Below, piece by piece: positions 3,301 through 25,766 of a DNA stretch of 34,468 nt; within the stretch, counting starts at the first letter, position 1; every line of letters begins with the position of its first letter. The stretch covers positions 1 to 34,468 of the IMG/VR virus record IMGVR_UViG_3300008470_000172; one strand, 5' to 3'. The position numbers were made by a program, and so were the translations under genes. The stretch comes from a virus. The notes beneath the pieces were generated by a model. It was given only the letters and a program-made list of their open reading frames with translations, was not told the origin of the DNA and made no database searches.

Positions 3301-4560
3301 ATGGCGCAAATTACAAGTAATAGTTTTAGAGGTATAAACATCTTCAGACGCGGAAACGACAGGTACACAACAACACCAAACTTGATCCCTAACTTGTTAA
3401 ACCTATTCAATAAAAGTGCTGACTATCTTTCAATTGACGGCCATGAATCCGAAATACTTAAGACAACGCCCCAATTGAAAGCGGTTGTTTATAGAAAGGC
3501 AGAAATGATTTCAAACGGTAAATGGGTACATTATGGCCGTGATGGAAAGCCAATTGATAATTCGCCAATTGTTAAACGATTAAACAAACCAAACCCATTT
3601 CAAACGGGCCGTGAATTCATCATTCAAAATTCTGTTCAAAAATCAACATACGGAAACGCATTGACATACATCTTGAAAGGTTCGAAACTTGCACCTGTTC
3701 CGTCTGCTTTTTGGAATCTTGCACCGCAATTCATGACTGTTGAACGTACAGGAAAGATTTTTAACATGACTGAAGAATCTGAAATCATTTCTTCTTACAG
3801 ATTGAACTTTGATTCAGCAACAGGAATTTCACAGGAAACATTCGAACCGCACGAAATCCTTCACAGAAATATTCAAGATGTTGATGATCCCATCGTTGGA
3901 ACGTCACCACTTCACGCAATCAAAATGCCCTTGTCAAACATTCGTGGTGCTTATGGTTTCCGTAATGTATTGATTACAGAAAAAGGTGCGCTTGGTATTC
4001 TGTCAAATAATTCAAAAGGAAGTGCGGGTGCTTTGCCATTAACAAACGATGAAAGAAAGAAAATTGATACCGCATACACTAGAAACTACGGAATCAGCGA
4101 GAAACAAAGAAAGGTGTTGTTGACAAATGCATCTTTATTGTGGCAACCAACAAGTTTTCCAACGAAGGATATGATGCTTTTCGAAGAAGTTTCTGATGAT
4201 TTCCGCGCAATAATTGATGTATACGGAATGGATGAATACTTGTTTTCCGTTGGTGGTGTTGGTGGCGGTTCCACTTATGAAAATAAGAATTCAGCGAAGA
4301 AAGGCGTTTATGAAGATACAATCATTCCTGAAGGTGAAGACCTTGCACGTGGAATGACAGACAAATTGAACCTGGAAGACAAGGGTGAATGGTTGGAACT
4401 GGATTATTCACATCTTGCAATACTTCAAGAAGATCAAGTTTTGAAATCAGAAGTTCAAAAGAACAAAGCAGAAACAGCAAGAACAATGAAACAATCGAAC
4501 GGACTTTGGTCTGATGCTGAAATCAAAGAAGTTGTTGATCTGATTCCCGAAAAGAAATAA
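3301..4560 (+). CDS. Phage portal protein (HK97 family), inverted relative to the rest of the genome
   Basis: The portal ring occupies one capsid vertex and is the docking point for terminase and tail. The 419 residues fit the family. Recognisable stretches include TPQLKAVVYRKAEMIS, a proline-containing NKPNPFQTGREFI, STYGNALTY, the EILH segment before a 'DD.IVGTSPL' region, and a C-terminal 'MTDKLNLEDKGEWLELDYS' region. It lies beside the protease and capsid genes as expected, but on the opposite strand from them and from both terminase genes. It has its own upstream -7 element and ends at a bidirectional terminator, so it is a monocistronic unit convergent with the operon at 6510-4633. Confidence 0.9.
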   Translation: MAQITSNSFRGINIFRRGNDRYTTTPNLIPNLLNLFNKSADYLSIDGHESEILKTTPQLKAVVYRKAEMISNGKWVHYGRDGKPIDNSPIVKRLNKPNPFQTGREFIIQNSVQKSTYGNALTYILKGSKLAPVPSAFWNLAPQFMTVERTGKIFNMTEESEIISSYRLNFDSATGISQETFEPHEILHRNIQDVDDPIVGTSPLHAIKMPLSNIRGAYGFRNVLITEKGALGILSNNSKGSAGALPLTNDERKKIDTAYTRNYGISEKQRKVLLTNASLLWQPTSFPTKDMMLFEEVSDDFRAIIDVYGMDEYLFSVGGVGGGSTYENKNSAKKGVYEDTIIPEGEDLARGMTDKLNLEDKGEWLELDYSHLAILQEDQVLKSEVQKNKAETARTMKQSNGLWSDAEIKEVVDLIPEKK

Positions 4561-7328: not shown

Positions 7329-7399
7329 AGCCTCCGACAGGATTCGAACCTGTGTGCACGGTTTTGCAGACCGCTACCTGACCACTCAGACACGGAGGC
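7329..7399 (-). tRNA. tRNA-Cys (GCA)
   Basis: A full cloverleaf can be drawn on the minus strand. The acceptor stem is GCCTCCG with CGGAGGC. The anticodon stem-loop GCGGT-CTGCAAA-ACCGT has anticodon GCA. The T-arm is ACAGG-TTCGAAT-CCTGT, and the discriminator base is U73, the known Cys identity base. The 3' CCA is not encoded. It starts 4 nt after the stop of the 7404-7721 gene, so it is probably cut from a longer transcript. The roughly 110 nt between it and the next gene holds only a weak hairpin (7290-7310). Confidence 0.93.
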
Positions 7400-8089: not shown

Positions 8090-9571
8090 TTATTTTGAAT
8101 TTTGATCTTCATAGTCACCAAGTACTTGAACGAATTCGTCGTAAAGGTGTGGAAAGTACATCATAATCATTCGTGCAAGCCCTGCAAGCGCATCGGGTGC
8201 ATCATCGTGCTTGTTGCCTCCTGTCTTGCGATATTCACAAAGATTGATCATGAAACGCCCGTATTCGGTGCGCTTGTCAAAGTTGTTCCTGAAATAGAAG
8301 TACTTTTTTATGAATCCTGACATCGTTTGAATTCTGGTGTGCTTGTTGCCCCTTGCGTACATTTCAATTAAACCTGTGACACCGTTCATTTTTGGTTCTT
8401 GGCTTATGCTCATTAATTGAATATACATTCCACCACCGAAATTTGATTCAACTTGCATGTATTCGGGTTTGTGAATATTGGTCATCAGGATCGTGTCAGT
8501 CACGTTGGTTTCTGTTCCTTCCTTAGTGAAAAGAACGTCATCAATGAACGCTTTACTTCCAATAAGTTTTGCAAATGGTGCACAATGATTGTCTTCACCT
8601 TTATCGGCAACATCAACGAACGCACAACATGTCTCAGCTTGGACCATGTCAACCGTTTCATCGTCAAAGTAGTTCAATTCATCTTTAGAGAACATCAAAC
8701 CCTCTTTTGGTGATGGATCTTGTAAGTATTGAGAGTCGAAAACAACATCATTGACTTCGCGCAAATGCTCCAATTCCTTCAGGCTATGTTTGAACGGCCA
8801 CAATGCAGAACCGTCTTCTTTTATGCATGGTAAAGAAAGAACAACCCAATCTTTTTCTTCAACGTCCATAAGATAACCGGATAAATCCATTTCGTGAAGA
8901 CGTTGCATGATGACAATGATTGGCGTGTCACGTGAATTGGTTCTTGATCTTATGGTTGAATCAAAGCGATAGTTTACTTTTTCACGTTGCGTGTCTGAAT
9001 CCGTGTCATCGGGCTTTATTGGATCATCAATGACAATTGCACCGCCAAAGTTTTCAAGATAATCAATATAAGTCCATCCAGTTTTATCAACTTCAGGATT
9101 TCCAACAGCACCTGCACCGAAACCTGTTACTGATCCACCTGCGGCCGTTGCATAAACACCGCCTTTTTGATCGGTGTACCACTTTTTTTTTGACTTTGAA
9201 TCAGCCTTTAATTTTATAGGAAAGTACTCCTGGAACTCGTCAGATTCAATAAAATCCTTTATAGATTCTGAATTGTCAAGTGCTAAAGTATCAGAATACG
9301 AAAGGTGAATGAACTTTGCTTTGGCGTTGTTTGCTAGTATGTACGCGATAAAATTCTTCACAACAACTTCAGTCTTCGAATAACGTGGTGCAATGTTTAT
9401 GATCAGCCGTTTTGTACGCCCCATGATAACGTCAACCAATTCATCAATTATCTGTTGATGGTGTTCGTTGAACTCAAATTTTCGCCCGTTGTGCTTCTTG
9501 AAGAAGTATCTGATGAAGAATTCAAATTCATACTTCAGTTTGTTTTGTATGAACTGTTCACGTGTTGCCAT
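8090..9571 (-). CDS. terL: Terminase large subunit (TerL)
   Basis: This is the ATP-driven DNA packaging motor and headful/site nuclease (493 residues). The ATPase domain has a deviant Walker A APRYSKTEV (61-69) and a Walker B AIVIDDP (178-184). The coupling region is IVIMQRLHEMDLSGYL (219-234). The RNase H-like nuclease domain shows its acidic residues in FVDVADKGEDN (D320), QVESNFGG (E375) and HDDAPDALAG (D456/D457). The gene follows the small subunit by 2 nt, so the pair is probably translated together. The Walker A lacks the usual second glycine (S in place of G before KT), a variation known among terminases. Confidence 0.95.
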   Translation of the reverse strand: MATREQFIQNKLKYEFEFFIRYFFKKHNGRKFEFNEHHQQIIDELVDVIMGRTKRLIINIAPRYSKTEVVVKNFIAYILANNAKAKFIHLSYSDTLALDNSESIKDFIESDEFQEYFPIKLKADSKSKKKWYTDQKGGVYATAAGGSVTGFGAGAVGNPEVDKTGWTYIDYLENFGGAIVIDDPIKPDDTDSDTQREKVNYRFDSTIRSRTNSRDTPIIVIMQRLHEMDLSGYLMDVEEKDWVVLSLPCIKEDGSALWPFKHSLKELEHLREVNDVVFDSQYLQDPSPKEGLMFSKDELNYFDDETVDMVQAETCCAFVDVADKGEDNHCAPFAKLIGSKAFIDDVLFTKEGTETNVTDTILMTNIHKPEYMQVESNFGGGMYIQLMSISQEPKMNGVTGLIEMYARGNKHTRIQTMSGFIKKYFYFRNNFDKRTEYGRFMINLCEYRKTGGNKHDDAPDALAGLARMIMMYFPHLYDEFVQVLGDYEDQNSK

Positions 9572-20001: not shown

Positions 20002-20606
20002 TTATAAATTATTATCAATTTTCCACTGTTTAAAATCTTCACGGTCGAAGCCTTTTGGAATTTCATCTTTGATTTTTCCAAGAGCATCGAGAACTTCAGG
20101 CGCAATCTCTTTGATAGTTGATTAACTAGCTTTCCATCTTCAACGGCATGTTCGCTTTTGCGTTGTTTGTTGCTTTGCTCGGTTTGTTTCATGCAATGGG
20201 TTACGCGTTCTTCAGCATATTGGGCGAACCACTGCAAAACTTCAGGCATATTTAAGGCGTATTTAATTGGGCCATATTCGCCCCGCTTTGCCTTTCTGAA
20301 AATGTACGTTATTTCTGTCATATTCATGAAATAGTAAAGCGTTATGATTTCGCTGGCTATCTCATAATTTTGGAATTTGCTTAATTTACCGTGAACGTTT
20401 ACCGATTGCGCAAGGCTTAAAAGGTGCATTTCAATTACTGCGATCACAGAATCTTCGCCTATTTGCTTTCGATAAAATGCCAATCCGTTCGGGTCCGCTT
20501 TGATCGCTTCAGCTACATTTTTAACCGTTCGTATTTCCTTACTCATTCGGTTCGGTTCGAATTTCACTAGGAAATTTTCTTTTGTGTATTTAATTAAATC
20601 GCTCAT
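20002..20606 (-). pseudogene. Phage replication-region gene with a -1 frameshift near its 3' end
   Basis: The frame from 20606 (MSDLIKYTKENFLVKFEPN) looks normal to about residue 165 (...KSEHAVEDGKLVNQ), then becomes unlike protein and stops at 19983. The alternative frame from about 20115 reads IKEIAPEVLDALGKIKDEIP...DREDFKQWKIDNNL and stops at 20002, just before the next start codon. Total length is one base short of intact. The shift lies between 20111 and 20127, not in a long homopolymer. The gene overlaps the replisome-organiser gene by 4 nt (ATGA). The function is not recognised beyond co-occurrence with the replication gene. Confidence 0.72.
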
Positions 20607-21343
20607 GCTTGCCCTGTTCTTTGCCTAAGTTCTTCTAAATATTCAGCGTCTATTCCTTCACCATGGTTTTTCTTTTGTTCGTCTTGTGACTCTTGAAAAA
20701 GGCGTTCAAACTTTTCACGCAATTTCTTTATGCTTTGTATGTTCTTTTTCCAAAAATCATTTGCTTTTAAGAACTTGAACACTGTTTCGAATTCTTTAAT
20801 TGTTCGCCCGTCCGTGTCGATCATCAAACGAACATCATTCGTCCACGGTTTTAATTTGGCTTTATCCAATTGCATCGTCTTTTCAATTCCTGTACTTTTT
20901 AGATTTGACTTAAACAACTTCCAAAAGGAAAAGGCAATTTTTTGATTAGTCAAAAGTTTGGTTTCTTCAGAAAGCGAACAAAGAAGTATTTCTTTTACTT
21001 TCTCTTTCCCTTCCTCTTGTACTTTCCCTTCCTCTTGTACTTGTACTTGTTGGCTAGGGGTTATTTGGTTTTCATTTACCCCTACCGTAGGGGGTGCGGT
21101 TTCGGCTTGTAACGTTGTGCCTGTCTTGTCTTCATAGCCTTTTACCTGTGAATCAATGCTGTTCGTTTGGCTTATGTATGCAAAACTTGCCATTCCTTTC
21201 AAGTCGTCAGGTTTGACCCCTAAAAATTGTCTATCTAGTAAAGCGTCCATAAATTGAACCTTTGCTTTGTCGTCTAATTCGTTATAGACATCGTAATAAC
21301 TTCTAAAAAAATTAAAGCCTTTACGCTTTGTGAGTTTTACCAT
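20603..21343 (-). CDS. Replisome organiser / replication initiation protein (DUF6291-like N-terminus)
   Basis: The N-terminal 70 residues (FFRSYYDVYNELDDKAKVQF, FMDALLDRQF, AYISQTNSIDSQVKGYEDK) resemble the DUF6291 domain of Bacteroidota phage replication proteins. After a linker with a duplicated VQEEGK unit, the C-terminal domain (WTNDVRLMIDTDGRTIKEFE...FWKKNIQSIKKLREKFERL) follows the pattern of phage replisome organisers that load helicase. The two VQEEGK units are encoded by a direct DNA repeat around 21007-21048. The gene lies directly behind a terminator-like RNA structure (21362-21453), so its expression may be attenuated. Confidence 0.72.
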   Translation of the reverse strand: MVKLTKRKGFNFFRSYYDVYNELDDKAKVQFMDALLDRQFLGVKPDDLKGMASFAYISQTNSIDSQVKGYEDKTGTTLQAETAPPTVGVNENQITPSQQVQVQEEGKVQEEGKEKVKEILLCSLSEETKLLTNQKIAFSFWKLFKSNLKSTGIEKTMQLDKAKLKPWTNDVRLMIDTDGRTIKEFETVFKFLKANDFWKKNIQSIKKLREKFERLFQESQDEQKKNHGEGIDAEYLEELRQRTGQA

Positions 21344-21361
21344 AATTTAGAGTATAAAAAA

Positions 21362-21453
21362 AGCCTTGTAAATCCGTCAGGTTCTCACGTCTGATTTCAT
21401 TACAAGGCTAATTTAAAATTTCCTTTTGTTCCTATGTTGTGAGAACGGAACAA
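21362..21453 (-). promoter_or_regulatory. Structured leader RNA with two complementary hairpin loops ahead of the replication gene
   Basis: Read on the minus strand, hairpin 1 is TTGTTCC/GGAACAA (21453-21447 with 21432-21426), and its loop contains GTTCTCAC. Hairpin 2 is AGCCTTGTAA/TTACAAGGCT (21409-21400 with 21371-21362) followed by seven or more T, a good intrinsic terminator. Inside it a TCAG/CTGA stem presents a loop with GTGAGAAC. The two loops are perfectly complementary over 8 nt, allowing a kissing or alternative pairing that could affect termination just before the replisome-organiser gene. The 8-mers could instead be protein-binding half-sites. The interval has no ORF. Confidence 0.6.
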
Positions 21454-21469
21454 GTGCGCAATATACAAA

Positions 21470-22349: not shown

Positions 22350-22520
22350 TTATTTATTGAATTTTTGTGTACGAATGACATCAATCTTTGTTTGGTCCCA
22401 ATTGGTGAAGAACTTTGACCTGTCTTTGTCACTGATTTTTGTGTAGTTCGGTGTTGTTCGAAGATGATCTTTATCAGGATAAACCGTTCGAATCATTGGG
22501 GGTGTGTAGATGTTTTCCAT
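22350..22520 (-). CDS. Hypothetical protein, 56 aa
   Basis: MENIYTPPMIRTVYPDKDHL begins a basic, polar small protein (ending DVIRTQKFNK). It starts 3 nt after the stop of the preceding 45-aa gene and ends 13 nt before the next, so it fits the operon. No family is recognised. Confidence 0.55.
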   Translation of the reverse strand: MENIYTPPMIRTVYPDKDHLRTTPNYTKISDKDRSKFFTNWDQTKIDVIRTQKFNK

Positions 22521-22694: not shown

Positions 22695-22739
22695 AACAAA
22701 CATTTGACAATAACAGCAATAAAATGTTATTTAATTCAA

Positions 22740-22775
22740 AAAGCGTGTGAAAAAAATTAATTAATCACACGCTTT
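22740..22775 (-). terminator. Terminator closing the tail/lysis transcript
   Basis: AAAGCGTGTGA (22740-22750) pairs with TCACACGCTTT (22765-22775) over 11 bp with a 14-nt AT loop. The minus-strand product continues TTTTTGAATT. It separates the lysis genes from the replication promoter. Confidence 0.8.
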
Positions 22776-22821
22776 CAACAAATTAATACACATCAAAATC
22801 ATCACACTTTGAGGTAAATAT

Positions 22822-22852: not shown

Positions 22853-23451
22853 CTATTTTAAGTTAAATCTATCTTCATTAAGAAGCGCAAATGAAAATTT
22901 ATCACATAATCCATGCGAAATCTGAATTCGTGCCATTTGATAAAGTAAGTCCATATTTTCGTTGACAGATCCCCAACAACCCGCCGACCATTTACCAACG
23001 TTATTTCCAATAGTACCCATGTCATGACCGTTGTATTATAAATAGCGTGTTCAACTTCACCTTCGAAATCAAGCTGTTCGTTTCGGTCATTGTCTCGCCA
23101 ATAGGTCATGTTTCCAGTTTGACGAAATGCTTCTTGTCCACGATGCCCGCCTTTTTTCATATAGGTATAAGCCCCACGATGTTGAACACCGTGTTGAATT
23201 ATGGCTGTACCATCTATATTCACTGGATTCATTCGGTAATAAAGCCCCGCGTCAGTTGTTCCTTCAACTATTACTGAAACAATACCACCATTATTTGTAA
23301 AGAAAGAAGCAAACAACCAATCATTGAACCTGTTCGATTTTTTATCCTTGGTACGAATACCTCCAAGCGCTACATCAAAAGGTCTTTCAAATACCTTCAT
23401 TCCCGCTTCACGCATTACTTCGTGAATTTCTTCAATCGTTGGTCTTTTCAT
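22853..23451 (-). pseudogene. Probable lysis enzyme (L,D-transpeptidase-like SxGC motif) with a frameshift
   Basis: The N-terminal part (residues 1 to about 145) matches a Bacteroidota phage family: TKDKKSNRFNDWLFASFF, EGTTDAGLYYRMNPVNIDGT, KKGGHRGQEAFRQTG and YWRDNDRN. Beyond HAIYN the frame from 23451 becomes nonsense. The alternative frame gives HDMGTIGNNVGKWSAGCWGS with a conserved histidine and SAGC, and ends at 22853. The gene is one base short of intact, with the break at about 23015-23030. The H...SxGC pattern resembles L,D-transpeptidase-like cysteine enzymes. With holin-like neighbours, a peptidoglycan-degrading role is inferred. Confidence 0.72.
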
Positions 23452-25110: not shown

Positions 25111-25766
25111 TTAATAGTTATTTGTTACATTTTCATCTTCGGTTGGAACTTCTTTTTCTTCATTTTATTCTATTATAAACCCGTTTAAGTCAAGGGGCTT
25201 GCCTTTTAATTCGTTGTATTTGCCCCCTTTAACATTATTACCTAAAGCATCAATATAAAAGCTATCTAATGAAACCAAATAAATTGATATTAGAAACCTG
25301 TACTCGATTATTTCAGTTTCAGTAAGTCCCATCTGGGCAGTTAAGTTTGATACATCTTCATAAGCGTTAATAAAATTACCAGATTCAATGCTTTGTTTTA
25401 ACGTGTCAAAGTGTATATATGTCAAATCCCTCTGCTGTTCATGAGAACTTAAACTAGCATCTGATGAAAGCCTTAAAAGTCTAAATTTAGAAGAAACGAG
25501 GTTTGATAGTATTGAACCATATTCTTTACGGCTTTCTTTTTGAAGTATTTCGTCGCCTAATGGATCGGATGAGTCTTCTTCTGTTATAGCGTTATAGAAA
25601 TTTATTATTTCCGTTTTTTCTGTTTCGTCTGGCTCGCTCTCAAAATAAATATTTACATTAACGCCCTCTGACGTACCTATAAAATTTAAAGAATAGTTAA
25701 GTCTTAGCCATTCAGTAAAGTATTTATTTTTGCGTTTGTATTTATACTTAGTTCTATTTTATACAT
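25111..25766 (-). pseudogene. Tail-module protein with an N-terminal frameshift and an in-frame stop before a coding-like tail
   Basis: A long open frame from about 25748 to 25165 reads KNKYFTEWLRLNYSLNFIGT... to KPLDLNGFIIE but has no ATG. An ATG at 25764-25766 (MYKIELSINTNA) is joined to it by restoring one base in the T5 run 25727-25731, giving about 200 residues. Beyond the TAA at 25165-25167 the same frame continues NEEKEVPTEDENVTNNY to a second TAA at 25111. The ATG lies inside the end of the YkgJ-like gene. The function is unknown; it sits among fibre genes and may be a chaperone or virion protein. Confidence 0.55.

Follow-up and report, generated by a model that had tools for sequence, protein, structure and literature searches.

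A kissing-loop leader RNA in front of replication genes of Bacteroidota phages, probably a transcription attenuator

Here, we describe a leader element directly upstream of a phage replication gene, in which the loop of a 5′ hairpin is complementary to the apical loop of the intrinsic terminator that follows it. Judged by matched mutations that preserve it in dozens of phages, this loop–loop element is a real structured RNA. Such leaders open the DNA-replication genes of many phages with Flavobacterium-type hosts. We consider it probable that the element acts in cis to attenuate transcription close to its promoter, at the head of early or replication operons of the phages. It is apparently undescribed and probably represents a switch for phage replication: searches of Rfam 15 gave no gathering-score match at the element or at the elements of 20 related loci (sub-threshold matches were noise), and no description was found in the open-access literature; unpublished candidate lists may exist.

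Structure and surroundings of the element

In the window, i.e. the whole stretch of 34,468 nucleotides of viral DNA that was analysed, the kissing-loop leader spans positions 21453–21356 of the minus strand, as read from the sequence. The features of the locus are, in the direction of transcription:

21458–21465, minus strand: predicted promoter box TATATTGC (TAnnTTGY, SM5-like), 4 nt before hairpin H1; from sequence and finder
21426–21453, minus strand: hairpin H1, 7 bp with a 14-nt loop GTTCTCACAACATA, predicted 5′ end of the RNA; from sequence and folding
21439–21446, minus strand: K1, the H1-loop sequence GTTCTCAC, complement of K2; from sequence and covariation
21433–21438, minus strand: AACATA, which follows K1 in the H1 loop as a 3′ linker (class A: ANNATA); from the alignment, conserved columns and linker table
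21410–21425, minus strand: single-stranded spacer of 16 nt between H1 and the terminator hairpin (mostly 11–16 nt in class A); from sequence
21362–21409, minus strand: terminator hairpin with a 10-bp outer stem, internal loop TGAA/GGAT, apical stem TCAG/CTGA and loop ACGTGAGAAC; from sequence and folding
21381–21388, minus strand: K2, the apical-loop sequence GTGAGAAC in the terminator, complement of K1; from sequence and covariation
21356–21361, minus strand: T-run of the predicted intrinsic terminator; from sequence
20603–21343, minus strand: DnaD-like replisome organiser or replication initiator (PHROG 2514, DnaD-like helicase loader, E = 1.8e-17; phrog_4880, replisome organizer, E = 9e-14)

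Read along the minus strand, the order is TTGTTCC-GTTCTCAC-AACATA-GGAACAA, the spacer, AGCCTTGTAA-TGAA-ATCAG-AC-GTGAGAAC-CTGAC-GGAT-TTACAAGGCT and the T-run. The arms of H1 are TTGTTCC (21453–21447) and GGAACAA (21432–21426), the outer stem of the terminator is formed by 10 perfect base pairs between AGCCTTGTAA (21409–21400) and TTACAAGGCT (21371–21362), and the apical stem encloses AC-GTGAGAAC. The original prediction had thus placed the element correctly with regard to its coordinates, strand, both hairpins of 7 and 10 bp and the exact 8-nt complementarity of the loops, and also to the T-run that ends just before the replisome organiser, whose ATG at 21343 lies 12 nt past it. It had taken GTTCTCAC alone for the H1 loop, whereas the loop comprises all 14 nt of GTTCTCAC-AACATA.

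The G+C-containing 10-bp stem is followed directly by six T, as in an intrinsic terminator. The 8-mer that K1 and K2 share as exact complements has no other copy in the window, and their kissing interaction, computed as a free duplex, amounts to about −10 kcal/mol. The folding energy of the whole leader is −25.6 kcal/mol, compared to −15.7 ± 2.8 kcal/mol for shuffled sequences (z = −3.58). A leader peptide was dropped as a candidate: the tiny frames that begin with this loop's ATGAA in the internal loop of some relatives' terminators differ in length and are not conserved.

In Flavobacterium psychrophilum, TAnnTTTG and TAnnTTGY (SM5) boxes sit at −12 to −5 (PMC9723704). With this spacing, the first base of H1 (21453) would be the +1 position, i.e. 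the Bacteroidota promoter box is predicted to place the transcription start at the first hairpin or within a few nt of it. Among the relatives described below, TAnnTTTG was present in 43 of 61 upstream 30-mers, compared to 2.5% of random 30-mers, and the gap to H1 was mostly 3–7 nt. For 84 promoter-supported elements we counted 82 sense boxes within 40 nt upstream, a number that is partly due to selection. Past the terminator stem, 71 of these 84 elements carry at least five T in 8 nt and 13 have poorer T-runs; in 82 of them, an ORF starts 11–61 nt after this stem, at a median distance of 23 nt. Promoter box and downstream gene start fit a leader that would control the replication operon.

The N-terminus of the replication protein in the window resembles DUF6291 (PF19808, E = 1e-4, under the Pfam cut-off). 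Elsewhere in the window, a portal-like protein is encoded on the plus strand (3301–4560; phrog_2662, E = 1.5e-25), opposite to the major head protein (751–2229) and the large terminase (8090–9571), both on the minus strand, and a tRNA gene is present at 7329–7399 on the minus strand (Rfam RF00005, 52.9 bits). Around 22738–22776, also on the minus strand, a perfect terminator-like hairpin of 11–12 bp, GAAAGCGTGTGA...TCACACGCTTTT, lies between the ORFs 22350–22520 and 22858–23451.

Covariation of the stems and of the loop–loop helix

Is the pairing between both loops retained in related phages? A covariance model built from five sequences, from which the loop–loop pairs were left out, retrieved 23 loci at E < 0.001. 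In the alignment of these 23 sequences, where the figures count sequences and not independent events, 96.8% of the cells of all four helices are paired, and the covariation score is 0.862 compared to 0.215 after shuffling. The H1 helix is paired in 97.4% of the cells with double changes in all five modelled pairs, the outer stem of the terminator in 98.7% with double changes in 10 of 10 pairs, and the apical stem in 98.1%. For the K1–K2 helix, we found 93.3% of the cells paired, compared to 68.2% when the partners were re-dealt and 31–46% when they were slid by 1–3 columns. It contains 43 double-changed cells (11.9 in shuffles), with double changes in six of its eight pairs, and none of 500 shuffles gave a covariation score as high. 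In a blind helix scan, the leading helices were exactly these four. Three of the 23 loci (L019, L023 and L080) had been missed by the finder that searches for loop complementarity; by inspection, their loops match too.

Since it was the match between the loops that had drawn attention to the seeds, an independent set was made from the terminator only. A DNA pattern of the terminator hairpin, in which six of the eight K2 positions were left open, gave 72 viral stretches, 36 of them distinct, and H1 was found in all 36 without using K2, an ATA being required in its loop. In this set, whose members are partly interrelated, 35 of 36 loci pair perfectly over all eight positions, with nine combinations of K1 and K2. 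Indeed, some loci with an identical terminator hairpin differ only in K2, and K1 follows the change (L266, L204 and L209; L219 and L241). The one exception, L238 (near 3370–3465), combines K1 CCTTCGAC with K2 GTCGGATG, which form six Watson-Crick pairs and one G-U pair; its loop duplex amounts to −6.0 kcal/mol, compared to −10 to −12.6 kcal/mol, and the locus looks like a natural recombinant of two loop types.

The original prediction had named a covariation search in related phages as its check. There, the terminator stem is not kept by itself: both stems and the complementarity of the loops are retained, and the loop–loop pairing, as in an intramolecular kissing-loop structure, is conserved by compensatory change. 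The G-U and A-C cells in the stems are also informative on the nature of the molecule. On the strand that reads the replication gene, the stem cells contain 30 G-U and one A-C, which indicates that the conserved structure is the RNA of the rep-coding strand.

Distribution, architectural classes and neighbouring genes

A search with the Rep protein led to 80 viral loci, and inspection of the upstream DNA revealed a recurring layout with differing sequences in front of Rep. A loose hairpin finder was uninformative (1855 matches versus 1763 in the control), whereas a tightened version, which asks for a hairpin and a terminator with complementary loops, found 88 places versus 11 in Markov controls. 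With the promoter box required, the finder gave 11 matches versus 0.33 in the Markov-shuffled control for ten phage genomes, and 5 matches versus 0.67 in the control for five cultured-phage records together with the window. After collapsing, 62 distinct promoter-bearing candidates were left, a few of which look like chance. About 60 distinct phage elements have this plan in common.

The cultured carriers are Flavobacterium phage 11b (33634), Elemovirus elemoF (9313) and Polaribacter Danklef_1 (28568) and Freya_1 (36646). At least two of these four have their element next to annotated replication genes; in elemoF, the element at 9313 precedes a gene that adjoins an annotated replication initiation protein. 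A match at 25381 of elemoF falls inside another gene and is probably due to chance, and a pattern scan for class D gave mostly chance matches. The element was absent from the regions of Bacteroides LoVEphage and Riemerella CRP5 that were examined, blastn of the window region against cultured phages gave no match, and of the genome-contig scans the first was empty and the second yielded one Lacinutrix MAG without a detectable element. Covariance-model and pattern searches for class A found none in 296 Flavobacteriales and 395 Bacteroidota chromosomes, with a weak first-look filter of the covariance model and few candidates scored. Based on this absence of class A from the sampled chromosomes, the element seems to be specific to phages.

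The commonest class (A), which includes the window, accounts for 27 of the 62 elements. Its K1 sits directly on the 5′ strand of the H1 stem and is usually followed by the 6-nt ANNATA linker, and in the apical loop of the terminator K2 is preceded by a linker, in most cases 2 nt long and mainly purine, and followed by none. A smaller class is the mirror image, with a 5′ linker in H1 and an AATA-like 3′ linker in the terminator. In pseudoknots, the deep groove can be bridged by a short linker and the shallow groove by a longer one that is rich in A. Considering this geometry and the observed linker lengths, coaxial stacking of the three helices is conceivable; the AACATA linker is positioned such that it could run across the kissing helix on its shallow-groove side. 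A further subtype upstream of Rep (L060–L064, L067, L068, L070, L073 and L074) has a 10-nt loop pair, AGGTCGAAGC/GCTTCGACCT, a spacer of ~40 nt and an apical loop of the terminator with little or no stem of its own. What is common to the elements is a plan and not one sequence pocket.

Downstream of the elements we found replisome organisers whose N-terminal sequences are of several kinds, the next gene often having ~300–340 codons (those without a match were judged by eye from the sequence), and in other cases a helicase, a ParB-like protein or an HNH endonuclease. Some phages carry two or three elements, and the loop pair then differs from element to element. The replisome organiser is the sole family common to all 14 element-bearing genomes, which is partly a matter of selection since these genomes were reached through Rep; a shared phage antiterminator protein was not seen among them. 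At one locus (L049, 1987–2019), a DUF805b RNA (Rfam RF02914, 49.5 bits) lies between the kissing-loop terminator and the ParB-like gene. In L032 and L054, promoter-like boxes and hairpins outside the kissing plan are found ~100 nt upstream of Rep, and the leader of L054 contains AGAGC..GCTCT and repeated AGGTTA motifs; these two leaders are possibly another kind of leader control.

Proposed mechanism and alternative readings

We propose that the transcript would begin at H1, whose K1 loop would wait while transcription proceeds. Upon its emergence, K2 would pair with K1 over 8 bp; this kissing helix would make the RNA, ~100 nt in length, compact, and the terminator stem would close beneath the helix. 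As the kissing helix is compatible with the full terminator stem, the RNA would end at the T-run unless the outcome is altered. From the element's promoter, the replisome organiser (20603–21343) would thus be made by read-through of the terminator only, and the extent of read-through would set the level of Rep. From the sequence, we infer that both termination and read-through occur; RNA polymerase might also pass the terminator constitutively, and promoters located farther upstream in this operon may transcribe the gene as well. The sensed input, if any, could be the folding kinetics of the RNA itself, a host factor or Rep.

The kissing-loop attenuator of the original prediction is borne out in its structural part, i.e. 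in the stems, the loop pairing, the promoter box and the gene start, whereas a classical switch with a competing antiterminator is unsupported. The scan for other conserved helices gave no well-supported antiterminator helix, which argues that kissing and termination are compatible and leaves no sign of a classical antiterminator. We speculate, with a slight preference over the opposite, that kissing aids rather than hinders termination, by closing a hairpin whose loop is long and interrupted and by arranging it in advance. If kissing assists termination, occupying or melting either loop would raise the expression of Rep.

In its logic, the nearest known system is the rep attenuator of pT181, also a leader RNA before a replication gene in which a 5′ hairpin, an intrinsic terminator and loop kissing take part in control (PMC4878617). 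There, however, the leader kisses a second molecule, an antisense RNA, and the terminator has to compete with an antiterminator (PMC4878617), while the kissing partner in the phage element is the terminator's own loop, in cis. Both defining features of pT181 are missing here: antisense TAnnTTTG boxes are not enriched over the 84 elements (9 versus 8.85 expected), and a conserved competing helix was not found.

Among phage RNAs, HK022 put is the nearest, and a put-like antitermination site ranks first among the alternatives, although we regard it as unlikely. According to this reading, the folded RNA would bind RNA polymerase or a host factor and promote read-through of its own and of later terminators. 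The putL and putR sites of HK022 are short phage RNAs with two stem-loops near an early promoter, putL right after it, and possibly act directly without a phage protein (PMC9378689). The window has two stem-loops and a predicted promoter box, which may be an early one. The conserved unpaired positions ANNATA and ATGAA/GGAT point in the same direction, and the finding that only the replisome organiser is common to the 14 genomes, partly by selection, fits a mechanism based on RNA alone or on a host factor. However, put acts on distant terminators, where it prevents termination, and descriptions of its structure mention neither a terminator nor a loop–loop helix (PMC9378689). As far as described, its second hairpin has no built-in terminator, whereas that of the phage element is itself predicted to terminate.

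Less probable still is an independent small RNA of ~90–100 nt that would act in trans, for instance in autoregulation or, like the P4 CI RNA, in immunity, with the kissing providing stability or a binding surface and the place before rep being secondary. The predicted ends of the RNA coincide with the promoter box and the terminator, elements of the same genome carry differing loop pairs, and near-identical terminator hairpins differ only in a K2 that K1 follows, all of which would suit such an RNA. It would leave the tight coupling to the downstream start codon unexplained, though, and the absence of K from the rest of the window means that no further phage target is visible; moreover, other relatives hold K constant while their stems change, so that a fast change of K is not general. 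In the immunity system of satellite phage P4, a processed CI RNA pairs in trans with two targets. P4 and the phage element are alike in the short complementary segments that their replication-operon leaders contain and in premature termination, which is predicted here; the difference is that the phage element pairs within one RNA. ColE1 RNAI–RNAII kissing is similar in its loop–loop helix of 7–9 bp, which could stack on both stems, but in the phage element the kissing is intramolecular and one partner is a predicted transcription terminator.

A ligand-binding riboswitch with the kissing complex as its aptamer appears very improbable. Such a switch would agree with a compact pseudoknot that has conserved unpaired bases and is directly coupled to a terminator, yet several unrelated linker architectures share the kissing plan only, unlike one conserved pocket, the downstream genes have phage replication and not a metabolic pathway in common, a mutually exclusive antiterminator helix is missing, and there was no match in the 395 Bacteroidota genomes or in Rfam. 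The other reading offered by the original prediction, in which the 8-mers are DNA half-sites for a regulator or, by extension, part of a replication origin, can practically be set aside: the neighbouring initiator gene and the inverted 8-mers, as potential operator halves, would suit it, but the 8-mers lie inside hairpin loops and change between phages with their complementarity retained, and G-U prevails over A-C on the transcribed strand.

We place the element among the attenuating leaders, a generally known kind of RNA, as a new family of structured RNA with a novel terminator that kisses in cis, since it lacks the two defining features of pT181 and its nearest phage RNA is HK022 put. More tentatively, we can imagine a phage-specific class of RNA-only regulators of transcription in which the 5′ hairpin locks the terminator loop of the same molecule, and which Bacteroidota phages may have reinvented in several topologies, including a mirrored one. 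Diverging loop pairs would then keep the elements of one genome orthogonal, and the terminated RNA may additionally serve replication in trans, as a signal of dose or superinfection.

The element is apparently a widespread structured RNA family outside Rfam 15, and its covariation is enough to establish the structure without experiments. It raises the question of how an intrinsic terminator can be modulated by a tertiary loop–loop contact in place of a competing helix. The cultured carriers 11b, elemoF, Danklef_1 and Freya_1 make the element testable, with the natural loop pairs as orthogonal variants. It is attached to a decisive step of the phage, the start of replication, in a host phylum for which little is known about how phages regulate their genes.
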